Source of the DNA: Bacteroidetes bacterium RIFCSPLOWO2_12_FULL_37_12
Lineage (GTDB): Bacteria; Bacteroidota; Bacteroidia; 2-12-FULL-37-12
Reading direction: 5' to 3'
Length of the DNA stretch: 64,000 nucleotides
Assembly (NCBI GenBank): GCA_001769655.1
Contig: MEPC01000017.1
Coordinates: 26,157-90,156, forward strand
Shown piece by piece: positions 8,542 through 57,795 of this stretch. Made by a program: the position numbers and the translations under genes. The stretch's first letter is position 1. Each line of letters starts with the position of its first letter. The notes beneath the pieces are model-generated. The model had not been told where the DNA came from. It saw only the letters and a list, made by a program, of their open reading frames with translations, and ran no database searches.

Positions 8542-9867
8542 CTATTCCTCCGCCGAACTTTGCATTATAACAGGAAAACTTTTTGTTGCTTTCGCTCCCA
8601 ACTCCTTTATTTTCTCGGCAGTTTTTAACATATTCCCTTTTCCGGTGTAGAGTTTTTTATAACCCTCCTGAAAAATATCCTGTGCCCGGATAAGCTCCTC
8701 TCCTACTTTTGTAAAGTCATCAGTGACACTTACCAATTTATCATACATTTCTCCACTTAAACGGGCAATCTCAAGCGTGTTTTTATTTTGATTCTCCTGC
8801 TTCCAGATATAGGCAATCGTTCTCAACGTAGCTAATAAAGTAGAAGGATATACCAACACAATGTTTTTTTCAAATGCTTCGTTATAGATAGCATGATCGG
8901 TTAGAATGGCGGCTGGTTCCACCGGAATAAATAGAAATACAAAATCGGGCGAATTGATCTGATACAAGGTTTGATAATTCTTTTGACTCAACTCTTTAAT
9001 ATGTTTCCTGAGCGCATTAAAATGTTCTTTCAAATAACCATCCTTTTCAATTTCATTTTCTGCATTAAAATATTTTTCATACGCAATCAGTGACACTTTA
9101 GAATCAATAATATAATGTTTATTCTCGGGAAGTGAAATAACAACATCCGGTTGGTACCGGCTCCCATCTTGTCCTGTAAATTGGCTTTGAATTTTGAAAT
9201 GTACATCCCTCTTAAGCCCTGATATTTCCAATATTTTCTCAAGAATGACTTCTCCCCAATTCCCACGTGTTTTGGCTTCTCCTTTTAAAGCACGGGTTAA
9301 ATTGGATGTCTCCTTTGAAATTACGTTCTGTGCTTCCCCCAGTTTGCGGATTTCAGTTTCAAGCGAAGTTCGTTGTTTGGATTCCCTGTCATAACTCTCA
9401 CTCAATTTACTTTGAAAGTCCTTTATTTTTTCGTTGAGGGTTTGAAAGGTCTGGTCAAGATTTAATTTGTTAATCTGAGTAAATTTTTCTGACTTCTCCT
9501 CCAACATCCGATTTGTGATGAGTGAGATTTCATTCAGCATTATTTTTTTCTTTTCATCTAATTCGGCTTTTTGTTGTTCAAGTTTTTCTTTTAGAAATTT
9601 GTTTTCCGAGAGCGAAGTTGTCAAAGATTGTCCGGTATCAATACGCCGGTTCCGTTCTTTTTCTAATTCCGTTTGAAGTTCTTTAATTTGCTTGATGTAT
9701 TCCTCAATTTTCGCAAGTGTCACTGCGTAATCCCGCGACAGGTTATCCTGTTTTTCTTTCGCGTTGGAAATTTCCTTAGATGCAATAAATCGGGAGATTA
9801 GGAAGCCGGTAATTAAGCCGGTGGCTGTAGCGATTAATAGGGGGAAGATTTCCATGGTTTTGAACAA
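8542..9867 (-). CDS. rmuC: DNA recombination protein RmuC
   Basis: N-terminal TM, coiled coil, then GNWGEVILEKILEISGL, YQPDVVISLPENKHYIIDSKVSLIAYEKY, FLFIPVEPA. Confidence 0.93.
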   Translation of the reverse strand: MFKTMEIFPLLIATATGLITGFLISRFIASKEISNAKEKQDNLSRDYAVTLAKIEEYIKQIKELQTELEKERNRRIDTGQSLTTSLSENKFLKEKLEQQKAELDEKKKIMLNEISLITNRMLEEKSEKFTQINKLNLDQTFQTLNEKIKDFQSKLSESYDRESKQRTSLETEIRKLGEAQNVISKETSNLTRALKGEAKTRGNWGEVILEKILEISGLKRDVHFKIQSQFTGQDGSRYQPDVVISLPENKHYIIDSKVSLIAYEKYFNAENEIEKDGYLKEHFNALRKHIKELSQKNYQTLYQINSPDFVFLFIPVEPAAILTDHAIYNEAFEKNIVLVYPSTLLATLRTIAYIWKQENQNKNTLEIARLSGEMYDKLVSVTDDFTKVGEELIRAQDIFQEGYKKLYTGKGNMLKTAEKIKELGAKATKSFPVIMQSSAEE

Positions 9868-9889
9868 AGGTAAGTAATATTTTATATAG

Positions 9890-9990
9890 AAATGGTTAGA
9901 TGGTTAGATAGTTAGATGGTTGACTGAAAACAATTAAGCATATACCTCTATACCCCTATACCCTATACCCTATACCCCTATATCCTCTAA
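9890..9990. repeat. Adjacent ATGGTTAG and CTATACCC microsatellites
   Basis: atggttagatggttagatagttagatgg followed by atacctctatacccctataccctataccctatacccc. Confidence 0.85.
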
Positions 9991-12900: not shown

Positions 12901-13085
12901 ACACTTGAAAATTCATCGTAGGCGGCCCAGATGGTGCTTAGAAATAGTAATAGTGAAAAGAAAAGATAAACGGAAGTATAAGAACGCAATTCAACCGGGT
13001 CTTTCGTGAGCCGTTTTATGCGTTTCCATTTCATTTCTTCACGGAAAAGTTTTAGGTCTTGTTGAAATTGGGAAAGTAAGCTCAT
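9987..13085 (-). CDS. Membrane-anchored multiheme c-type cytochrome (8 CxxCH motifs)
   Basis: CQSCH, CISCH, CQSCH, CWGCH, CTSCH, CYGCH, CVGCH, CQKCH; N-terminal TM segment; coiled-coil-rich N-terminal third. Confidence 0.9.
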   Translation of the reverse strand: MSLLSQFQQDLKLFREEMKWKRIKRLTKDPVELRSYTSVYLFFSLLLFLSTIWAAYDEFSSVNYLKDLPRREWREWINEYKQIGLNMTRLKKDQLLYTKDENGNNLVGQITAMKIRLRIVSDSVSKLSGYLSAKNSYILYFNQLRDESVKLSDMKAKDAQAYFFYTDALKKNDFKVIKKMKADIDLYADSIYTIGLKIEKIRTLRDEQKSKIAEFEKNINDLHDNIEKLNADLIQLNNDSTMYSEVKSRINQVVMKDYSTNNFFDLEMNIDRCQSCHLAWNDSLFDDKSENMFKFKGFADSLQKIYKIPSFYKKITYKEFAHMHWKYEAPLTVEEFYALPAEERTKILEEVAQKHSGTVRIPAPDPLTATQTDLLEIRTDPLQYHSPEILKVHNVDKIGCISCHQGQGIAIDIGEAHSRPHEPGYDHYWEKPLMREKYVESSCQSCHPTSVNLSMGETVSLGRKLVMDLGCWGCHQTPLDKYYKLRKVGPNLNGLMAKTNPQFIYRWIKNPKNYYSFSRMPNFYLSDKDAMAITAYLANLSKSSTYQPETYPGNGDAERGSQLAMHVGCTSCHSIGDIQWSKLSPTPFLKEGSGFAPNLNKVGSKAKADWIYDWILNPKKYHPETRMPDLRLTSQEAADITAFLVTLKEKNEESTLTGFDAFKLDDQKMIALGSKLIEQKGCYGCHDLKEHNQFSNVSVSLIEIADKNVHNLDFGNSVSTNPKHHNHTWEGWIKGKVRDPRQYQTDRITLAMPNFGLNETEIEAIAVALKGWTKRKIADPYQPSPSPVVKARDMGQVFFRDNNCVGCHQIENYKSGHIRDQINQELLIGLDPFEFGNDIAYAPPILATPGSRYQENWLLKFLKDPTLGNEYGIRPNFLIRMPSFDFKEEEMNVVLNYFHSTEGKSLQLKDNSPPKTTPDKIALGKDLVAKFDCQKCHAVGGEPKDIFLSKYAPDLRDVHEKLKPDWTHKWLGDPQGFLKSTKMLPNWGNGYVKVDFPIPNSGMTVEEEARYQGEAVRDYLYTLRREMKYHRN

Positions 13086-13245
13086 GGTGAGTTACAGGTT
13101 TTTTAGCTTGAAAAATAAAGAATTTAAGTGGACTGATATTTCATATCAAATATTAATCTTTGTCATGATTTATATCATACCCATTGAAATTAAAGTGCAA
13201 ATGTAATATTTTATAGATAAAAAGGAAAGAGTTGGGGAAAAAAAA

Positions 13246-13328
13246 GGTATAGGGTATAGAGGTATAGAGGTGAAGGGTATAAGGTATAAAGGTACAGCCC
13301 CTATACCTTATACCTTATACCCCTTTCC
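13246..13328. repeat. GGTATAGG palindromic microsatellite
   Basis: ggtatagggtatagaggtatagagg...aaggtataaagg then inverted cccctataccttataccttatacccc. Confidence 0.85.
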
Positions 13329-13332
13329 TTCA

Positions 13333-14913: not shown

Positions 14914-15294
14914 TTAATGCGCCACAATTTCCTCATACTGCGAAGAAGACAATAAGGCATCTATTTCCGTTGGATTGTCAATGGAAATTTTGATAATCCA
15001 TCCCTTTCCGTAGCAATCCTTATTTACCAAATCGGGATTGGTGGATAGTTCTTCATTTTTTTCAAGTACCTTTCCTGTTACAGGAGAAAAAAGGTCAGAA
15101 ACGGTTTTCACTGCTTCAACCGTTCCAAAAATTTCATCTTGCTTTATATTTTTACCGACCGATTCAATTTCAATAAAAACGATGTCGCCGAGTTCACTTT
15201 GTGCAAAGTTGGTGATTCCTACGGTTCCGATATTGCCTTCGATAAGGAGCCATTCATGGTTTTTGGTGTATTTGAGTGAGGAGGGGTATGACAT
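14914..15294 (-). CDS. gcvH: Glycine cleavage system H protein
   Basis: KYTKNHEWLLIEGNIGTVGITNFAQSELGDIVFIE and lipoyl site ETVEAVKTVSDLFSP-like (GTVEAVKTVSDLFSPVTG). Confidence 0.97.
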   Translation of the reverse strand: MSYPSSLKYTKNHEWLLIEGNIGTVGITNFAQSELGDIVFIEIESVGKNIKQDEIFGTVEAVKTVSDLFSPVTGKVLEKNEELSTNPDLVNKDCYGKGWIIKISIDNPTEIDALLSSSQYEEIVAH

Positions 15295-15517
15295 GGGAGT
15301 TAAAAAAAAGTTTTATGGTTATGTGGTTGGATGGTTAAATGGTTAAATGGTTATAAGGATGAACTATGGAATTTCATGCAAAAGTATAAATTTTAATGGA
15401 TATAATTTTAATAGGGAAATTATAGGGTTAATTTATTATTGAAATGCTGAGAAACTTCAGGCAGTCGCGTTAAGGACAAAATATCGGTAGAAAGAAAATT
15501 CAATGTTTTTCTATTGA

Positions 15518-15552
15518 AGTGCCCCTTCCTTCGTCAGGGTAAACTCCGGCAC
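15518..15552 (-). repeat. Inverted copy of the 63-bp repeat core
   Basis: Reverse complement gtgccggagtttaccctgacgaaggaaggggcact differs at about 2 of 35 positions from the matching part of 15933..15995. Confidence 0.85.
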
Positions 15553-15647
15553 AAATCATATTGTAACAACGGACTTCAGTCCGTTGTGGAAACGCTAACT
15601 TCAAACAATTGAGTGCCGTAGGCAGGAATCATAAAGAAAAAAAAATT

Positions 15648-15790
15648 ATGCCAAACACGTATTATCAGGTATATATACAAGGTGTCTTCGGGGTAATATA
15701 TCGCGAAGCAGTTGTTGAAAAAACCTGGTATTTTTGAAAAAGTTTGGAGTATCGTATGACGACAGATACCTTTTTGAGGATCTGATATGA
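15648..15790 (+). pseudogene. Internally deleted remnant of an IS200-like (Y1, TnpA) transposase
   Basis: 15648.. encodes MPNTYYQVYIQGVFGVIYREAVVE (resembles the N-terminus of Bacteroidota IS200-like transposases). 15725..15790, in another frame, encodes LVFLKKFGVSYDDRYLFEDLI* (resembles their C-terminus). The catalytic middle is absent. Confidence 0.65.
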
Positions 15791-15854
15791 ATCGTGCCTA
15801 CGGCACTTTTTACTATAAACCGTACGCACTTGAAGAATGGGCTAAAGTCCATCC

Positions 15855-15917
15855 TTACAAAATAAAATCGTACCGGAGTTTACCCTAACGGAGGAAGGGG
15901 TACTTTTAAACCCTTAG
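15855..15917 (+). repeat. 63-bp direct repeat, copy 1
   Basis: ttacaaaataaaatcgtaccggagtttaccctaacggaggaaggggtacttttaaacccttag; 3 mismatches to copy 2. Confidence 0.95.
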
Positions 15918-15932
15918 TGTATTATACTGAAA

Positions 15933-15995
15933 TTACAAAATAAAATCGTTCCGGAGTTTACCCTGACGGAGGAAGGGGCACTTTTAAACCCTTAG
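15933..15995 (+). repeat. 63-bp direct repeat, copy 2
   Basis: ttacaaaataaaatcgttccggagtttaccctgacggaggaaggggcacttttaaacccttag; 78 bp from copy 1. Confidence 0.95.
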
Positions 15996-16089
15996 GGGAA
16001 CTTTCTACCGGTGATTTAGAATAAAAATTGGTTGAAACATTTTTATCAGCACATCAAAATAAGAATTAGCCAAATTAAAGCATGTATCA

Positions 16090-33323: not shown

Positions 33324-33407
33324 GGTTTAAAAGTTTTAATTCCAACTAACTTTGTTTCTTTGTGTCTTTGCGTTGAAAAAACTGCATTATGCAAGATATC
33401 TATTGAA

Positions 33408-35997: not shown

Positions 35998-36525
35998 TCA
36001 TGATATCCCAATTATTAAATCCACCGCAGATATTAAATTTTTAGTTTTATAATCTTCCTTAAATGATTCCTCCTTATCTGAAATTAAAATTGTTCTAAGA
36101 TTCATTTTTTTTCCGGCAATAATGTCCCTCTCCGTATCGCCAATCATCCAGGATTTTGATATGTCAATGTTAAATTGAGAAATGGCTTTTTCATACAATA
36201 GCGTTCCCGGTTTGTGGACTAAGGATGCACTAAAACGTGAACGACAGGGACTGTAATAAAAAGCATCAATTGATTTTGCACATCTTTTTTGAATTTCGTC
36301 ATGAATAACTTTCAATTGCTCTCTGGTGAACAAACCTTCAGTAATACCACCCTGATTGGTGATCACAATCAATAAATATCCGTGTGATTTTAGTAGTTGT
36401 AATGCCTGGGATACTCCGTTGATTATTTTCAAATCTTCCACGCGAGCGATGTAGTCACCGCTCTCTTCATTGATAACACCATCGCGGTCTAAAAAAATGC
36501 ATTTTCTTTTTTTGGCGGTTTTCAT
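35998..36525 (-). CDS. HAD-IIIA phosphatase, GmhB/HisB-N-like
   Basis: CIFLDRDGVINEE, LIVITNQGGI, SWMIGDTERDIIAG. Confidence 0.9.
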   Translation of the reverse strand: MKTAKKRKCIFLDRDGVINEESGDYIARVEDLKIINGVSQALQLLKSHGYLLIVITNQGGITEGLFTREQLKVIHDEIQKRCAKSIDAFYYSPCRSRFSASLVHKPGTLLYEKAISQFNIDISKSWMIGDTERDIIAGKKMNLRTILISDKEESFKEDYKTKNLISAVDLIIGIS

Positions 36526-36544
36526 TCGGCAAATTTACAAACAT

Positions 36545-36695
36545 AAATGATTAAATGGTTAGATGGTTGGATAGTTGGATGGTTTGATGGTTTGATGGTT
36601 AAATGGCTAAATGATTAGATTGTTGGATGGTTAGATGGTTTTTACTCAACCATTTAACATTTTAACCATATAACATTTTAACCATTTAACCATAA
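36545..36695. repeat. 8-bp-phased inverted array (12 RRATGGTT units then 6 AACCATTT-type units)
   Basis: Unit-by-unit reading: aaatgatt aaatggtt agatggtt ... agatggtt / tttactc / aaccattt aacatttt aaccatat aacatttt aaccattt aaccataa. Confidence 0.92.
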
Positions 36696-36750
36696 TTTTT
36701 TGTCATATTATAAATATATTTGCAAAAACAAACAATATTCTGATATACTC

Positions 36751-41272: not shown

Positions 41273-41300
41273 GTATGAATATTGATATATTTCTATTTGT

Positions 41301-41482
41301 TAATACTTTTGTAATACAGTTGTAATACGATTGTAATACAATTGTAATTCAGTTTTAATACGATTGTATTACCATTGCATTACCATTGTATTACTGTTGC
41401 ATTACCATTGTATTACTGTTGCATTACTATTGTATTACTATTGCATTACTATTGTATTACTATTGCATTACTATTGTATTAC
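41301..41482. repeat. 11-bp-phased inverted array A (17 units)
   Basis: TAATAC-type hexamers at 41301, 312, 323, 334, 345, 356, then (T/C)ATTAC at 41367 through 41477, all exactly 11 bp apart. Confidence 0.95.
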
Positions 41483-48237: not shown

Positions 48238-48271
48238 GCTGACATTTTTGAATCAATCCAGGATCCCAATC

Positions 48272-48308
48272 ACCCCTCTCCATTTTGGAGAGGGGCTGGG
48301 GTGAGGTC
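48272..48308 (-). repeat. CCTCACCCC/GGAGAGGGG repeat copy 2
   Basis: acccctctccattttggagaggggctggggtgaggtc. Confidence 0.93.
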
Positions 48309-48334
48309 ATTTTGAATCTATCCAGAGTCTCTTT

Positions 48335-48372
48335 CACCTCTCTCCATTTTGGAGAGGGGCTGGGGTGAGGTC
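48335..48372 (-). repeat. CCTCACCCC/GGAGAGGGG repeat copy 3 (overlaps the copA stop codon)
   Basis: cacctctctccattttggagaggggctggggtgaggtc; tandem with copy 2. Confidence 0.93.
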
Positions 48373-50542
48373 ATTTATATCGTAAGCGTAATGAGTTTCC
48401 AATCACCACTACATCAGAAAGCGCCATGGCGGCGGCTCCTATTATGGGCTGTAATAACCCCACAAAAGCTACCGGTATGGCTACTACATTATAAAAGAAA
48501 GCCCAGAATAAATTTTGTTTTATGGTTTGAAGCGTCTTGCGGGATAACTGAAAAGCCGTCACCAATGTATTCAATTTTCCATGCAAAAGAACAATATCGG
48601 CTGAATGAATAGCTATATCAGTGGCATTGCTCAGTGACACTCCGATGGTTGCTTTTGATAATGCCGGTGCATCATTAATTCCATCTCCTACCATGGCTGT
48701 AAATCCTTCTGAAGTTAATTTTTCAATAATGGAAAGTTTTTCATCAGGTAGTTTTTCATAAAATACCTTTTCAATGCCACAACGATTTGCTACCGCTATG
48801 CATTTTTCTTTCTTATCCCCGCTTAAAAGCACAGGTTGAATTCCCTTTGATTTAAACCATTGAACAATAGTTACAGCATCGGGTTTTAATTCATCTTCCA
48901 TGTCAATACCGGCAAGTATTTTACCATCTTCAACTACATAAATATCGTGCGGACATTCTATATTTTCAATTACGATTTCCTTTGAACCAATTTTATATTC
49001 ACGGTTGTTTTCATCCACCGCAAGCATACCTATTCCCTTTTGCTCTGTAATTGTTTTAAATGATAATACTTTTTCCGAATGAAAATTTTTAGCCAGCGAC
49101 TTTGCTATTACATGAGATGAATGTTTTTCGATATTATATATAAGGGTATTCATATCTGTATCATTATTTTGATACATTTTGATATTTCTGATTCTGAATT
49201 CTCCGTTAGTTAGCGTTCCTGTTTTATCAAAGACAATCGTTTTAATATTTGCGAATTTTTCGAGGGTCTTTCCTCCCTTTATCAGAATTCCGTTTCGGGC
49301 GGCTCTTCCAATTCCCACTATCAATGCAGTGGGAGTTGCTAATCCCATCGCACAGGGGCAGGAAATTACGAGTACCGCAATTGCAGACATGACTGATAAT
49401 TTAATGGCAACAGCTACCATCTGTTCATTAAAAAAAGAGTGATAGATGAACATAGTAATCAAAGAACAAAAGGAAATTCCTATTACTACCGGCACAAAGA
49501 TGGAGGAAATTTTATCACCAATTGCCTGGATTTCCGGTTTGGATTGCTGAGCCGATTTTACCAATTCAATAATTTTACTCAACATGGAATTATCCGCATT
49601 GCCGGTTGCCTTATACTTAAGATTTCCATCAGAAACCAAGGTGCCGGCATACACTTTATTTCCGTTTTTTTTGCTGACAGGTATGCTTTCTCCTGTAATC
49701 ATGGATTCGTCAAAAACAGCAGTGCCTTCTTCTATTACACCATCAACGGGAACTGCATCGCCGCTATGCAACACGAGTATATCATTCTCTGCAATTTTCT
49801 CAAATCCGGTTTCTTCGATTTTTTCATTCCCGTTTGCATCTGTGACAATTCGTTTTGCAATGTTGGGTTGAAGTTTGGATAATTGCTCTATGGCGTGAGT
49901 GGTTTTTTTAACGGCAGTTTTTTCGAGAAGATTACCCAGCAATACCAGCGTAATAATGGAAGCCGAAGTTTCAAAATACAAATCGCCCCCCCAAAACATG
50001 GCAAGCACACTATATATAAATGCCGCTGAAGAACCGGTAATAATGAGCACATCCATGTTTGGAATTTTTTCTTTTAAGGAATGCCAGGCGCTTTTTCCGA
50101 ATTGAATTGCTCCGATAAAATAAACCGGCAGACAAAGTAATAGTTGCGACCACTGATTATGAAATATATGAAAATAGGAAACCCAAGTGCCGGTAAAATT
50201 AAACGGTAAATGAAAAATCATGGTAGAGAAAAGCGGGAGAGTAAAAATCAAGGCGATAAAAAACCTGATTTTTAATTGTTTTGCAAAATCATGTATTGAA
50301 TCATGCTCAGAATGAATCCGGCTGTTTTTTTCCCTGGCTTTGTATCCAAGAGAATTTATTCCGGTTCTTATTTTGTCGAATGAAATTTTTTCATCCAAAT
50401 AAAAACTTGCTTCACCGGTGATAAAATCCACTTGAATATTCTGTGCTTTTTCTTTTTCAAGAAAATGGCTGATGGTTTTTGCACAATTCGTGCAGGTCAT
50501 TCCCTCAACTATAATCTCTGTTTTTTTGTTTTGGGTGTTCAC
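48371..50542 (-). CDS. copA: Copper-translocating P1B-type ATPase
   Basis: HMA motif GMTCTNCA, CPC motif (VISCPCAMGLATP), DKTGTLT, GDGINDAPAL. Confidence 0.93.
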   Translation of the reverse strand: MNTQNKKTEIIVEGMTCTNCAKTISHFLEKEKAQNIQVDFITGEASFYLDEKISFDKIRTGINSLGYKAREKNSRIHSEHDSIHDFAKQLKIRFFIALIFTLPLFSTMIFHLPFNFTGTWVSYFHIFHNQWSQLLLCLPVYFIGAIQFGKSAWHSLKEKIPNMDVLIITGSSAAFIYSVLAMFWGGDLYFETSASIITLVLLGNLLEKTAVKKTTHAIEQLSKLQPNIAKRIVTDANGNEKIEETGFEKIAENDILVLHSGDAVPVDGVIEEGTAVFDESMITGESIPVSKKNGNKVYAGTLVSDGNLKYKATGNADNSMLSKIIELVKSAQQSKPEIQAIGDKISSIFVPVVIGISFCSLITMFIYHSFFNEQMVAVAIKLSVMSAIAVLVISCPCAMGLATPTALIVGIGRAARNGILIKGGKTLEKFANIKTIVFDKTGTLTNGEFRIRNIKMYQNNDTDMNTLIYNIEKHSSHVIAKSLAKNFHSEKVLSFKTITEQKGIGMLAVDENNREYKIGSKEIVIENIECPHDIYVVEDGKILAGIDMEDELKPDAVTIVQWFKSKGIQPVLLSGDKKEKCIAVANRCGIEKVFYEKLPDEKLSIIEKLTSEGFTAMVGDGINDAPALSKATIGVSLSNATDIAIHSADIVLLHGKLNTLVTAFQLSRKTLQTIKQNLFWAFFYNVVAIPVAFVGLLQPIIGAAAMALSDVVVIGNSLRLRYK

Positions 50543-50692: not shown

Positions 50693-52624
50693 ATGCTCCG
50701 CTCAATTATCCTCATTTTATTGATATTTTTTGGGTACTCCTCTTACGCTCAGATGAGTTTAAGTGACACTGATTCGTCAAGAAAAAAAAGTTGGGATTTT
50801 TCAAGTTCCCGGCTTGGTGTCAGCACCATCGGATTAACTAACCGGTTTTTAACATACTATCCTTATAAAAACAATGATTTTACATTTTTCTCGGTTGATA
50901 ATGATTGGTTGTACAACGAAAACCTTCCTGAGAACTCTTTTGTAAAGCGAGATATGAATTTGAATGTTTTTCATTACAACCGCATCCATGAAAATTTCCA
51001 TTACATTCCGCAGATTAGTTTAAATGAATATTACGGCAGTAAAACATCCATCCGTGGATTTATCAATAATTTCAGCATTGCCACCCCGTCGAGGGTATTT
51101 ATCAATGATTTTCAATTAGGGTATCAGCAAGACACCCGTGACACCCTGCAGGACAAAGGGTTAGTTTATGGAAGCAATCTACTTATGAAAATCCGTAATG
51201 ACAGCACATTTAAAACTGGAATCAGAGGGAACATTTTGCAAACACAGATTTATCCGCGTTCCAATAATAAATATTACATAGAGGGTTATCTTAATCAACT
51301 TCTCAATCCACAAGCTGATTATTCTCTTTCGCTCGGCTATAAAAGCAGAAGAGTAGAAGATTACCTGAATAATAATATTCAAAGCATAGTGAGCGATACC
51401 ATGATTACCGGATTAGGATTCCACTATGAAATGCTTAAAGGGCTTACTTTTTCTTCTCAAAACAGTTTTGAACTTCCTAAACGGAATTTTAATTACAGGA
51501 GATTTAACGATTCCCTTTTGAACAAACAAAACTCACGTTTTGAAGAGTCACGTTTAAACACAAAACAATCTCTCAGTTTTAGCCGGAATACCCTGAATAT
51601 TTTGTTTACTTTTTCAGATGTGACCCGAAGCCGGGATTATGAACTGGAAAATTCATTGTTTAATTCTACGGAGGCATTTACTAAAGAACTTGAAGCAGAA
51701 AAAATTAAAAATATAGATGAAGAGGTAAAAGAATGGAGAATTCTCACGAACTATGGAATTAATGCAAAGCATTCAATACAATTAAACAGTGTGGGACAAC
51801 TGTTGCGGATTGATACGCCCAGTGAAAAAGAGAATCAGGACCGCGATGAAGTATATTATCAAACCGAACTTGGATTTGTTTCGCAATGGAACCCCATATT
51901 CAAAACAAACATTTCTCTGGCTGGTAATTACAGGGAACACCGATTTATTAAAAGCGAAAATAGCAATATTAATTTTGTTCAACAGGGGCTTTTACTGACT
52001 CCGGGATTTCAATGGAACCCAGGCAATTTTTATTGGAGTGGTTTTTACGGGTTGAATGTATCTTATCTGGTAAAAAATTTACTTTTTGAGCAGGAAAAAA
52101 ACCGTTCCAACCGTCAGTTTCTATCATCGCAGAATTTTAAATACCTCTGGAATGAGAATCATTCATCGGAATTACTTTTTGTACACACTGAAAACTTTCT
52201 GAGCAGATTAAATTGGGAAAAATTTTCAGAAAGTCCTCTCGATTCCACCTTTAGTGATGAAATTCAACTGAATCACTTTTTATCGTTAGGAAAGAAAATT
52301 TCAAGAGGAAATTTAAAAACAGGTTATCGTGTTTTTTATCAGAGTAAAACCATGACAGGTACCCTGCAAAAATTGAATGGATTGCCGGTTATGATTTATG
52401 CTGAGTCCATGGTTTTACAGCAGGGTCCCGACATTGGTTTTTTATTTACAAAAAAAAGATTTTCATTTTCTGTTTCCTGCTGGTTTCAGTTTGCAAAAAA
52501 CTACATCCGTTATAAAGAAGGAATTGCACCGGGCTCCGGTCACCTATATACAGAAGAAGAATTAAATGCAGTGATTAGAAACTTTTATCCCTATTTCAGT
52601 GTGAGTTCGAAGTGGAATTTGTGA
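50693..52624 (+). CDS. Hypothetical outer-membrane beta-barrel-like protein
   Basis: Signal peptide MLRSIILILLIFFGYSSYAQ; aromatic beta-strand-like pattern to the C-terminus. Confidence 0.6.
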   Translation: MLRSIILILLIFFGYSSYAQMSLSDTDSSRKKSWDFSSSRLGVSTIGLTNRFLTYYPYKNNDFTFFSVDNDWLYNENLPENSFVKRDMNLNVFHYNRIHENFHYIPQISLNEYYGSKTSIRGFINNFSIATPSRVFINDFQLGYQQDTRDTLQDKGLVYGSNLLMKIRNDSTFKTGIRGNILQTQIYPRSNNKYYIEGYLNQLLNPQADYSLSLGYKSRRVEDYLNNNIQSIVSDTMITGLGFHYEMLKGLTFSSQNSFELPKRNFNYRRFNDSLLNKQNSRFEESRLNTKQSLSFSRNTLNILFTFSDVTRSRDYELENSLFNSTEAFTKELEAEKIKNIDEEVKEWRILTNYGINAKHSIQLNSVGQLLRIDTPSEKENQDRDEVYYQTELGFVSQWNPIFKTNISLAGNYREHRFIKSENSNINFVQQGLLLTPGFQWNPGNFYWSGFYGLNVSYLVKNLLFEQEKNRSNRQFLSSQNFKYLWNENHSSELLFVHTENFLSRLNWEKFSESPLDSTFSDEIQLNHFLSLGKKISRGNLKTGYRVFYQSKTMTGTLQKLNGLPVMIYAESMVLQQGPDIGFLFTKKRFSFSVSCWFQFAKNYIRYKEGIAPGSGHLYTEEELNAVIRNFYPYFSVSSKWNL

Positions 52625-52734
52625 GGGGTAGAAGGTATAGGGGTATAGGGGTATAGGGGCATAGGGCATAGCCGTAAACTTTAGTATTTAAAAAATTATG
52701 AACTAATTTATAGTTTTCACTTGGTGTTTTTTTT

Positions 52735-52771
52735 GCCCCTCTCCATTTTGGAGAGGGGCTGGGGTGAGGTC
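52735..52771 (-). repeat. CCTCACCCC/GGAGAGGGG repeat copy 5
   Basis: gcccctctccattttggagaggggctggggtgaggtc. Confidence 0.93.
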
Positions 52772-52801
52772 TTTTAAGTTGACGAGAATAGGTATAGGCA
52801 C

Positions 52802-52834
52802 AAAAAAAAAGGTCGATCAGATACCTGATCGACC
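52802..52834 (-). terminator. Intrinsic terminator (minus strand)
   Basis: ggtcgatcag-atac-ctgatcgacc perfect 10-bp stem, followed on the minus strand by a T tract (A run at 52802..52810). Confidence 0.85.
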
Positions 52835-52844
52835 CCATCTACCT

Positions 52845-52870
52845 ATGAAAAAAAGTACACTGGCGTGTAC
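52845..52870 (-). terminator. Possible second hairpin/terminator (minus strand)
   Basis: gtacac-tggc-gtgtac stem with an A run on the left (T tract on the minus strand). Confidence 0.5.
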
Positions 52871-52985
52871 GATTATCATATGCTCAAATACTGTGCCAGA
52901 AAAAAAAGTGCTTTATAATGCTTTATAAACGTGTTTTTATATACCATTTTCTAATTTTTGGACAAATTGTTTCATTTTGAGAAAA

Positions 52986-54338
52986 CTAATTTTGAGTATC
53001 AGCGGGTTCCCCTTCGGGTTTCATCAATCTGTAAACAGTGGACCTGCCTATTTGCAGGTGGTCGGCTACTTTCTCTATGTCATTGTTATACCTTTTAAGC
53101 AATCGTTTTATCATAAAAACCTTGATTTCATCAAGGGTATAATTATCCAACTCGATTTCTCCCTGTTGAATGATATTTGAAACAATGAAATGTTCTTTGC
53201 CAATTTCTTTACCCTCTGCCAAAATAGCAGACCTTTCGACAACGGCTTTTAATTCTCTGACATTTCCGGGCCATCCATAGCTCATTATAATCCTTATAAC
53301 ATCCGGGCTTAATTCCTTTTTCTCTAATTTATTCGACTTTATAAACTCTCTAAGGAAATGATTGGCAAGCAGAAGACAATCATCCCCTCTTTCTTTCAAT
53401 AAGGGCATATTTATTGGAAATCCGTAAAGCCGGTAGTACAGGTCTTCTCTGAATCTTCCTTTACTTACCTCTTCTTCCAGAAGTTTATTCGTTGCAACGA
53501 TAATCCTTGCATCAATCGGAATTCTTCCTGTTCCTCCAACGCGTGTGATTTCCTGCTCCTGTAATACTCTCAATAGTTTCACTTGCATTGAAAAGTCAAG
53601 TTCGGTGATTTCATCGAGGAAGAGCGTACCCCCAGTTGCTTCTTCAAATTTACCCATCCTACGGGCTAAAGCGCCGGTAAATGAGCCCTTTTCATGACCA
53701 AACAATTCGCTTTCAATTAAGTCCTTTGGAATAGCGCCCATATTGACAGATACCAGCGCCTTTTTTTTACGGGTAGAATTAAAATGGACAGCTCTGGCAA
53801 CAAGTTCTTTACCGGTACCACTTGCTCCGCTAATGCAAATTGTAATATTTGTTTGTGCGGCTTTTTTAATTAAGCTGAAAACCTTCTGCATGGGCTCGCT
53901 GACCCCGATAATATGTTGAAATTGATATTTTTCTTCCAGCGCTTCCTTAAGTTCTTCTACTTCCGTTTTCAAAGCCGCTGTTTTCATTAGAGCTCGAACG
54001 GTAACCAACAAGCGGTTTTCCCACTCTTCGCTCTTTATAATATAGTCACGAACTCCTTTTCTTAACATATTTATTGCAATCTCAACGTTGCTTTGACCTG
54101 ACAACATGATAACCGGTATTTCATTGGAAAAAGCATTAACTTGTTTAAATACATCCATCCCATTCATATCGCTTAATGAATAATCGAGAATGACAATGGA
54201 AGGTTTTTTATGCAAGTCAGCAAGCATTTTTTTTCCACTGAGGTATCTGTGGACTTCCAGTTCCGGCTCGTAACGAAGTGAGTATTCTACTAATTTTCCA
54301 AACATCTCATCGTCGTCAAGGATAAATACTTTAAACAT
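52986..54338 (-). CDS. Sigma-54-dependent two-component response regulator (REC-AAA+-Fis HTH)
   Basis: REC (ILDDDEMFG, VILDYSLSDMNG), SGTGKELVARAVHFNS, GSFTGA loop, GWPGNVRELK, C-terminal HTH. Confidence 0.96.
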   Translation of the reverse strand: MFKVFILDDDEMFGKLVEYSLRYEPELEVHRYLSGKKMLADLHKKPSIVILDYSLSDMNGMDVFKQVNAFSNEIPVIMLSGQSNVEIAINMLRKGVRDYIIKSEEWENRLLVTVRALMKTAALKTEVEELKEALEEKYQFQHIIGVSEPMQKVFSLIKKAAQTNITICISGASGTGKELVARAVHFNSTRKKKALVSVNMGAIPKDLIESELFGHEKGSFTGALARRMGKFEEATGGTLFLDEITELDFSMQVKLLRVLQEQEITRVGGTGRIPIDARIIVATNKLLEEEVSKGRFREDLYYRLYGFPINMPLLKERGDDCLLLANHFLREFIKSNKLEKKELSPDVIRIIMSYGWPGNVRELKAVVERSAILAEGKEIGKEHFIVSNIIQQGEIELDNYTLDEIKVFMIKRLLKRYNNDIEKVADHLQIGRSTVYRLMKPEGEPADTQN

Positions 54339-54348
54339 GGGAATTAAT

Positions 54349-54443
54349 TAATGCGATTGTGATAAGATTGTAATACAGTGGTAATACGGTGGTAATACTA
54401 TAGTAATACAATTGTATTACTATAGTATTACCATTGTATTAAC
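54349..54443. repeat. 11-bp-phased inverted array B (about 9 units)
   Basis: taatgc 54349, tgataa 54360, taatac 54371/382/393/404, then tattac 54415/426 and tattaa 54437; centre gtaatacaattgtattac. Confidence 0.92.
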
Positions 54444-54650
54444 TTAAATCAGCACGCTAAATTACGGATTTTCAAATAAAAAAAGTAACTTTGAGTTTCT
54501 TTTAGTTACAATTGTTATTTAATTAGCTATCTTTTGTAACTATTCAGGCGGGTATTATTTCTCACAAATAAAATGTCACGCAAAGAAGCAAAGTACGCAA
54601 AGAATTAATAACCATAATTTTCAATTCAAACAACCAATCTTTAAATATCT

Positions 54651-56555
54651 ATGACCAAAAAAACTAATAAAAAGCCACTAAAAAAAATTTATTCTAAAAA
54701 AGAAGTTGACCCCTCTTTTTATTCTGTGTTTGAAGGAGAAAAAATAAATGAGCGTTTTAACCGTTTAAGCAATGCGACCTTTGAGGCATTGGTTTTTCAT
54801 TACCATGAAATTATCGTTGACGTAAATTTATCCTTTACCCGCATGTTTGGGTATGAAAGGGAAGGAGTATTAGGAAAAAGCATCTGGATATTACCTGCCT
54901 GGGAAAAACAATCTGAACTAAAAAGATATATTAAGGAAAAATATAACAAACCTTTTGAAACGATTGGAATCAGGAAAGACGGAACTTCATTTAATTGTGA
55001 AGTGATTGGCAAAGAATTACCTTACAAAAACAAAAAAATAATCGTTTCGGCAATCCGTGACATAACCACTCAGGTTAAAACACGCAAAGAATTAGCAGAG
55101 AGCGAAGAGCGGTTCAGGGTTTTATCAGAATCCTCAACGGAAGCAATATTTATTCATAATCAGGGCATTATTGTATTAGCAAACACGGCCGCCTGCAAAT
55201 TATTTGGCTATACAAAAAGTGAATTGATTGGAATGACACCCAAAGAACTGGCTACACCCGAATACCACGCGATAATATTTCATAATATTAAAACTCAGAA
55301 TACAAGACCCTACGAAGTAACGGCAGTTCATAAAAACGGTTCTCATTTGAATATAGAAATAAAAGGGGATAAAGTTTTTTATAAAGGAAATGAGATGAGA
55401 GTGGTTTGCATAAGAGATATTACAGAAACCAAAAAAATGGAAGCTGTCTTGCGTGAAAATGAAGAAAAATACCGGAATTTGTTTGAAAATGCACATGACT
55501 TAATACAAAGCGTTAGTCCGGAAGGAAAATTTTTATATGTAAACAAGTCATGGCTCGATACCTTAGGTTATTCCGTAGAAGATCTTAATACCATGACTAT
55601 TTTTGATGTCATTCACCCTGAATCCATCTCTCATTGCGGAGACATTTTTTCACAAATTCTACAGGGAAAATCGTATGAAAATGTAGAAGTCACGTTTATG
55701 TGTAAAAACAAATCCATCATAATTGCTGAGGGAAACATTCATCCCCGTTATATGGGACAAAAAGTTATTGCCACTCAGGCATTGTTCCGGGATGTAACTG
55801 AAAAGAAGGAGTCGCTTAAAAAAATTAAAAAATTGAATGAAGAACTTGAGGAAAGAGTGCGGCAAAGAACGCTCGAACTGACACAAGTTAATCAGGAATT
55901 GGAATCATTTAGTTATTCTGTTTCGCATGACTTGAGGGGACCCCTGCGTAATATTGATGGTTTTTGCAATATTCTTCTGGCGGAATATTCTGTGAAGTTT
56001 GACAGCTTGGGATTAGATTGTCTGGAAAACATTCATCAATCGAGCCGGAAAATGAGTGTTTTAATTAACGATTTGATTAATTTATCAAAAGTTTCGCGGG
56101 CAGATATTATAAAAACAAGCATCAACCTAAGTTCGATGTTTGAAAAAATTGCCAATGATTATAAACTGAACCACTACGATCGTGCTATCCAACTTCAGGT
56201 GCAGAATGATATTTATTCAAACGGTGATGAAAATTTAATAAGCATTGTCATTGAAAATCTGATAAGCAATGCTCTAAAATTCACATCGAAGAAGCCCTCC
56301 GCCCTTATTAAATTCGGTCTATTGAAAGGTGATTTTGGAAATGCGTGTTTTGTGAGTGATAACGGAGCCGGATTTGACATGAATTTATATGACAGATTAT
56401 TCTGTGCTTTTCAACGGTTGCATCCGGCATCTGAATTTGAAGGAACCGGAATAGGGCTGGCTACCGTTAAGCGGATTATAGAACGTCATGGAGGAAAAAT
56501 TTGGGCTGAAGGAGAAGTGGAAAAGGGAGCTACTTTTTATTTTACCATCCCTTGA
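54651..56555 (+). CDS. PAS-domain (multi-PAS) sensor histidine kinase
   Basis: Three or four PAS/PAC segments; HisKA HDLRGPLRNIDGF; HATPase motifs (GTGIGLATVKRIIERHGGKIWAEGE). Confidence 0.95.
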   Translation: MTKKTNKKPLKKIYSKKEVDPSFYSVFEGEKINERFNRLSNATFEALVFHYHEIIVDVNLSFTRMFGYEREGVLGKSIWILPAWEKQSELKRYIKEKYNKPFETIGIRKDGTSFNCEVIGKELPYKNKKIIVSAIRDITTQVKTRKELAESEERFRVLSESSTEAIFIHNQGIIVLANTAACKLFGYTKSELIGMTPKELATPEYHAIIFHNIKTQNTRPYEVTAVHKNGSHLNIEIKGDKVFYKGNEMRVVCIRDITETKKMEAVLRENEEKYRNLFENAHDLIQSVSPEGKFLYVNKSWLDTLGYSVEDLNTMTIFDVIHPESISHCGDIFSQILQGKSYENVEVTFMCKNKSIIIAEGNIHPRYMGQKVIATQALFRDVTEKKESLKKIKKLNEELEERVRQRTLELTQVNQELESFSYSVSHDLRGPLRNIDGFCNILLAEYSVKFDSLGLDCLENIHQSSRKMSVLINDLINLSKVSRADIIKTSINLSSMFEKIANDYKLNHYDRAIQLQVQNDIYSNGDENLISIVIENLISNALKFTSKKPSALIKFGLLKGDFGNACFVSDNGAGFDMNLYDRLFCAFQRLHPASEFEGTGIGLATVKRIIERHGGKIWAEGEVEKGATFYFTIP

Positions 56556-56740: not shown

Positions 56741-57697
56741 ATGAATAAGTACTTTTCATTTAACATTATTTACCGCGCGTTTAGTATTATTCAGCTTTTC
56801 AATCTTTTCCACCCTGATCATCTATTTTCTCAAACCTTTGAAATAAAGAATAGTGACACTATAAATTATACTGACAAATATGGTCAGTCCCAATATTTAT
56901 GGAAAATTTTTTATACTAACGGAGGTGTTTTTTGTGAAGTATATTACAAAGACGGTGTATTTCATGGTCCTTGTGCTTTTTATCATCAAAATGGTAAACT
57001 AAGGAGTCAGGGCTATTATGCGGATGGAAATAAAACCGGAATTTGGCACTATTTTGATGAGAATGGCAGACCCTTGCGAGATGAAAGTATTCTTGACAAA
57101 GGAATTGATGAGGTTTGGAAATCCTACGATAAAAGCAATAAACTGGTACTTCAAAGCCGTGAAAAAAACGAAATCGTGAACGGAGAATACCGTACCTACT
57201 ATCCAAATGGTTCCCTGAATAGCATATCTTATTACCGTAATGGTAAAAAGGAAGGGACCTGGAGTTGGTTTTATAAAAATGGGACAGTCCTTCTTGAGCA
57301 AAATTATAAAACCGGAAAACTGCATGGACCCATTCATATTTTTTTTAAGACCGGCATCCTTGAATATTCCGGATTTTATAAAAACGGAAAAAATACAGGC
57401 ATTGCAGAAACCTATTTTGAAAATGGTGTATTGTCAGAAAGAATTAAATTCTGGGGAAATTCCAGCAAGGTGAAAACATACACTGAAAAAGGAGAACTCT
57501 CAGAAGTTTTTACATTAAGAAAAGGAATGTATCATGGGAAGTATAAATCTTATTATACTAATAATCTTAAAATAAATGAGGGGATGTATTTTAATGGAAA
57601 AAAGGAGGGGGAATGGAAATTATATTCACGCAACGGGAAACTTTTGAAAATTACTTTCTATAAGGAAGATGAGGTGGTTAGGGAGGAGATAAAGTGA
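56741..57697 (+). CDS. MORN/YwqK-type repeat protein
   Basis: Repeated NG(K)xxxxGxYxxGKKxGxWxxY units. Confidence 0.85.
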   Translation: MNKYFSFNIIYRAFSIIQLFNLFHPDHLFSQTFEIKNSDTINYTDKYGQSQYLWKIFYTNGGVFCEVYYKDGVFHGPCAFYHQNGKLRSQGYYADGNKTGIWHYFDENGRPLRDESILDKGIDEVWKSYDKSNKLVLQSREKNEIVNGEYRTYYPNGSLNSISYYRNGKKEGTWSWFYKNGTVLLEQNYKTGKLHGPIHIFFKTGILEYSGFYKNGKNTGIAETYFENGVLSERIKFWGNSSKVKTYTEKGELSEVFTLRKGMYHGKYKSYYTNNLKINEGMYFNGKKEGEWKLYSRNGKLLKITFYKEDEVVREEIK

Positions 57698-57700
57698 AAG

Positions 57701-57795
57701 AGTATAGGGGTATAGGGGTATAGGGGTATAGGGTATAGGGTATAGGGGTATAGAACTTCAAAATTTCCTTATACCCTTATACCTTTATACCTCAG
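57701..57795. repeat. GTATAGGG palindromic microsatellite between convergent genes
   Basis: gtataggggtataggggtata...gtatagaa then inverted ttatacccttatacctttatacc. Confidence 0.9.

Follow-up and report, generated by a model that had tools for sequence, protein, structure and literature searches.

The inverted array at positions 54349-54443 of the window (the whole 64,000-nucleotide stretch of DNA that we analysed) is probably one copy of a lineage-specific intergenic short tandem repeat, dispersed through its genome and grown by slippage, and not a dedicated operator for the regulator beside it. The array, its flanking genes and a sister array in the same window are laid out as follows, with the two flanking genes assigned by Pfam.

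52986-54338, minus strand: sigma-54-dependent response regulator with a receiver, an AAA+ domain and a weak Fis-type HTH
54348-54369, unstranded: decayed outer units TTAATGCgatt and GTGATAAgatt, seen in the sequence on the common 11-bp lattice
54370-54409, unstranded: left arm, four exact GTAATAC units with a period of 11 bp and spacers agtg, ggtg and tata
54390-54433, unstranded: 44-bp perfect palindrome TGGTAATACTATAGTAATACAATTGTATTACTATAGTATTACCA, from a palindrome search
54414-54442, unstranded: right arm, GTATTAC, GTATTAC and GTATTAA in the 11-bp phase of the left arm, spacers tata and catt
54651-56555, plus strand: multi-PAS sensor histidine kinase (PAS/HisKA/HATPase)
41300-41482, unstranded: sister array with 17 units on the lattice, flanked by gatB and a thioredoxin-like gene, which are codirectional

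A sequence-only reading had described an inverted TAATAC/TATTAC array with an 11-bp phase, and we confirmed this for 54370-54442 plus the two decayed units that extend to 54348. GTAATAC units begin at 54370, 54381, 54392 and 54403, GTATTAC units at 54414 and 54425, and GTATTAA at 54436, with every unit step equal to 11 bp, including the one that crosses the centre. The four-unit inverted pattern has an exact match at 54392-54431 against none expected from shuffles, so a chance origin is excluded. Because 54348-54369 holds just two decayed units, the stated outer limit of 54349 is reasonable, and the claim that the array starts 11 bp upstream of the response regulator agrees with the position of its ATG (54338). 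Both neighbours are indeed transcribed away from the array, the regulator on the minus strand and the PAS kinase on the plus strand. GTATTAC is the reverse complement of GTAATAC and departs from it at the central base only; both orientations thus fit one 11-bp lattice, and the inversion is therefore less informative than it appears. The perfect centre that had been reported is present as an 18-bp dyad, gtaatacaattgtattac (54403-54420), but its size was understated, since the real palindrome measures 44 bp. This is the longest gapless palindrome in the 1.15 Mb of the genome that we searched, where the runner-up (38 bp) is part of a different repeat, and its predicted stem is ~28 bp both as RNA and as DNA. 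Folding predictions for the whole array gave -43 kcal/mol as RNA (z -6.9) and a z of -9.1 as DNA. The window had no match to an Rfam family at gathering score, and a plasmid search with the response regulator returned only distant homologues (<60% identity). Between the array and the start of the PAS kinase lies a dispersed repeat of the CGCAAAGNNGCAAAG type (54579-54593), which also occurs at 33358-33372.

Across the 3.94-Mb genome (~36.5% G+C in the sampled part), TAATACN5TAATAC matched 108 times, versus 4 times for the reversed control. By our own array definition these matches resolve to ~32 arrays, with a few single-pair matches falling below it; all of the arrays are intergenic, and none (0/32) lies inside a gene. 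The family unit is GTAATAC-R-R-T-D (11 bp), and GTAATAC precedes GTATTAC in all 12 of the 12 regions with a single arm switch. Having noticed the same hexamer and phase at 41301-41482, the sequence-only reading had proposed a defined element class; the second array is real, albeit between codirectional genes, and the class is borne out by the shared unit, phase and order of the full set. The right arm of this sister array has a 22-bp higher-order repeat (GTATTAC/GCATTAC), and L053 contains 22-bp higher-order repeats too. The three-unit pattern did not occur in the 388 other members of the class that were searched, none of them of the same order, or in ~200 genomes from the rest of the phylum; among the genomes searched, the array family is restricted to its own. 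With a short unit of period 11 set head to tail at many dispersed loci, all intergenic and sharing no neighbour function, it fits the intergenic short tandem repeats. Literature searches returned nothing relevant on an 11-bp GTAATAC repeat, and as far as these searches reached the unit is new, while its kind is already known.

The same genome carries many further 7- and 8-bp arrays, at least two families of which, ATGGTTRR and GGTATARR, share the two-armed build and, together with GTAATAC, the common form of a core hexamer followed by two purines. Their left-to-right arm order is likewise constant in single-switch regions (7/7 and 19/19, respectively). ATGGTTRR recurs in G007, a genome from another family of the class, and GGTATARR in G058, G066 and G096, so both are patchy across the class. 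Within the window, GGTATARR/YYTATACC inverted arrays of 7-8 bp period occupy 9855-9986, 13085-13332, 52624-52985 and 57697-57791; such arrays often sit just past stop codons, several have a centre like GGAAATATTGAAGTTCTATTTTTC, and some have T runs behind them and may work as terminators. ATGGTTRR/YYAACCAT 8-bp arrays lie at 15294-16089 and 36525-36750 and are abundant in G007. Separately, a palindromic family with the core GACACGGTGCACCGTGTC or a close variant occurs at L047:3744-3781, L065:14420-14447, L046:5004-5031 and L048:12654-12675, and a 64-bp unit is present twice in tandem at window positions 48246-48376 (89% matches), with an inverted CCCCTCTCCATTTTGGAGAGGGG motif inside.

The sequence-only reading had favoured a regulatory leader or operator at 54349-54443, in keeping with the position of the array, 11-105 bp ahead of where the regulator starts, and with the 18-bp dyad inside it. 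Such an element would be an operator through which the adjacent sigma-54 response regulator controls its own gene, a control site of the PAS kinase, or both. We consider this very unlikely. The arrays follow the general intergenic layout, with 23 codirectional, 8 divergent and 1 convergent context (n=32) compared with 66.9%, 20.8% and 12.3% of the remaining intergenic regions; convergent gaps are slightly under-used (P 0.07-0.08) and divergent gaps are not over-used. The median distance from an array to the nearest start, approximate in that start positions come from our own simple gene caller, is 31 bp; placing arrays at random within their own gaps gives 30 bp. Most other arrays do not adjoin regulators: the neighbours are a mix of housekeeping and secreted genes and include RNase Y, TopA, RpiB, PDH E2, a NuoE-like protein, asparaginase, MetH, RuvC, CcmB, PhaC and others, among which Pfam revealed no regulator or functional theme. 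Operators of transcription factors form isolated sites upstream of related genes, and no isolated exact dyad was found outside the arrays of this genome. For the same reason we rejected dyads as seed operators. The intergenic region between the response regulator and the PAS kinase also lacks a sigma-54 -24/-12 match at up to 2 mismatches. The genome-wide search with tabulation of neighbours, which had been proposed as the check, therefore returned, at least with respect to regulators and start codons, the outcome named as counting against an operator, and because the spread of the arrays ignores both, the operator reading is unsupported. That a repeat is conspicuous and adjoins a regulator is thus no evidence in itself of regulation.

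The strong predicted folding of the 54349-54443 copy, along with the GGTATARR sister copies that often lie just past stop codons and in some cases precede T runs, could instead suggest that the arrays act as hairpins, whether as transcript terminators, attenuators, mRNA-stabilising stems or DNA cruciforms. For this array a terminator had already been called unlikely, correctly so at a divergent site, and the array does not resemble an intrinsic terminator, having an AT-rich stem and no T run after it. As GTAATAC and GTATTAC differ at the central base only, the heptamers of opposite arms pair automatically, and the spacer is the informative part of any test for hairpins. In the 16 two-arm arrays, spacer complementarity was 43%, significantly lower than the 54.5% obtained when arms were swapped between arrays (P=0.002). 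The GGTATARR family behaved likewise (P ~0.006 and 0.001), and ATGGTTRR showed the same direction without significance. Moreover, the sense strand folds no better than the antisense strand, which was the better-folding one in 12 of 20 codirectional arrays (sense in 7); selection for a sense-strand RNA hairpin was rejected on this count. One quarter of the arrays lie between divergent genes, and among the arrays only the one at 54349-54443 and one other, with 22 bp, contain a perfect palindrome longer than 10 bp. Since the arms of one array match each other less well than arms exchanged between arrays, an RNA- or DNA-hairpin function is disfavoured, and we regard it as improbable. This arm result recurs in two unrelated families and is of use beyond the present case, as a caution against the assumption that arrays are inverted for the sake of hairpins.

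The arms are also asymmetric in a consistent manner, with a GTAATACRRTT arm joined to a GTAATACRRTR arm in 13 of the 14 scorable two-arm arrays; the sole exception is the array at 54349-54443. We read the low arm complementarity in one of two ways: long perfect palindromes are selected against or lost, or the arrays stem from a single asymmetric seed. The 54349-54443 array would then be a recent exception.

The 22-bp higher-order repeats and the single-arm arrays are indirect signs of slippage, but purely neutral slippage does not predict how the unit is conserved. When scored on interior units only, which limits circular selection without fully removing it, mismatch to the arm majority was 1-5% at core positions 1-5 and 7 and 19-31% at spacer positions 8, 9 and 11. 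Position 10 (T) mismatched in 6% of interior units, and position 6 in 18%, mostly A-to-G, with much of this amplified in the 22-bp higher-order repeats. Purines nearly always fill the first two spacer positions, 132 of 138 steps are strictly 11 bp, and A/T switches fall in phase in 21 of 21 cases. The heptamer core is thus kept far better than the spacer, a pattern that simple slippage does not explain and that is of use beyond the GTAATAC family. No other observation argues as strongly for a sequence-specific factor, and a protein-based explanation stays in play, in which a DNA-binding protein (nucleoid-associated or a global repressor) would recognise GTAWTAC on each helical turn and coat the arrays, and so organise the chromosome or silence genes close by. 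We hold this to be unlikely. The conserved interior core, the strict 11-bp lattice maintained across the A/T switch and a core that, judged by its sequence, is a pseudo-palindrome suited to a dimer are consistent with it; the lack of isolated exact dyads beyond the arrays and of a common function among neighbours, and the two other families with periods of 7-8 bp that are therefore not helically phased, speak against it, and no candidate protein was identified. Less credible still is the more specific proposal in which the arrays are multi-site loading platforms for a protein particular to this lineage that recognises GTAWTAC at every helical turn, although this, if true, would account at once for the conserved core, for an 11-bp step that stays strict where the arms switch and for the lack of hairpin complementarity.

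Mobilisation by a transposase acting in trans, with the array as a REP/REPIN-type or MITE element, would account for arrays that are dispersed, intergenic and two-armed, and the genome contains three Y1 transposase matches, one of them ~1.2 kb from an array. However, the two full Y1 (RAYT-like) genes that we examined carry flanking palindromes of their own:

L126, ~1300-2050: Y1 transposase gene with palindromes of the CCCCGTAGGGG type
L127, ~1270-2010: Y1 transposase gene with palindromes of the GCCCTGAAAGGGC type

REP/REPIN repeats flank their Y1/RAYT gene, and neither of these two is flanked by the GTAATAC unit; RAYT/REP mobilisation was rejected on these grounds. MITEs have fixed terminal inverted repeats, whereas the arms here differ in length and the flanks have no common ends. 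The flanks of different arrays are unrelated, apart from a trivial overlap of two adjacent arrays and matches of 15-18 bp at the E-value limit, and transposition, of which shared flanks would be a sign, was rejected accordingly. We therefore see little prospect of the arrays being REP/REPIN or MITE elements.

Under the favoured reading of a slippage-grown short tandem repeat, a two-armed seed with arms ending RRTT and RRTR would have dispersed through intergenic DNA, and its arms may then have gained and lost one or two units at a time through slippage or unequal exchange. Arrays would be placed wherever non-coding DNA tolerates them and not as dedicated operators, consistent with the context tests. 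At 54349-54443 the arms appear to have become near-identical, probably through template-switch correction of a quasi-palindrome that yielded the 44-bp perfect palindrome; we infer this because the otherwise uncommon tata spacer sits symmetrically in both arms. If the array influences the response regulator, which starts 11 bp away, it would do so incidentally.

Short tandem units dispersed in intergenic DNA, as in the GTAATAC arrays, are familiar from the cyanobacterial STRR, which differ in being heptamers of other sequence in another phylum. The present genome holds several intergenic repeat families side by side, and GTAATAC has counterparts among described systems. Xanthomonas GGGAATC heptamers (PMC4692102, 2015) are similarly dispersed, mostly intergenic short tandem arrays beside unrelated genes, many of them convergent inverted pairs of fixed relative orientation; that unit is a G-rich, quadruplex-capable 7-mer biased close to the 5' neighbour, whereas GTAATAC is an 11-bp, AT-rich, pseudo-palindromic unit with in-phase arms. 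The TAACTGA heptamers (MacGregor 2015, PMC4679880) are also intergenic tandem arrays without a functional theme among neighbours, and their patchy distribution over lineages that include some Bacteroidetes resembles the patchiness of ATGGTTRR and GGTATARR. They are, however, direct repeats that share one orientation and mostly lie just ahead of start codons, at a distance of a few nucleotides, whereas GTAATAC arrays are two-armed and have no start bias. BrickBuilt of Porphyromonas gingivalis (Klein et al. 2015, PMC4596501), a minisatellite/MITE with 19 copies in one strain, is likewise a species-limited intergenic tandem repeat of the Bacteroidota, but it has a 23-bp unit, a leader, a tail, small inverted ends and demonstrated promoter activity, and GTAATAC arrays have no such ends. 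Set beside these systems, GTAATAC is a well-defined 11-bp addition to the poorly understood short tandem repeats of bacterial intergenic DNA.
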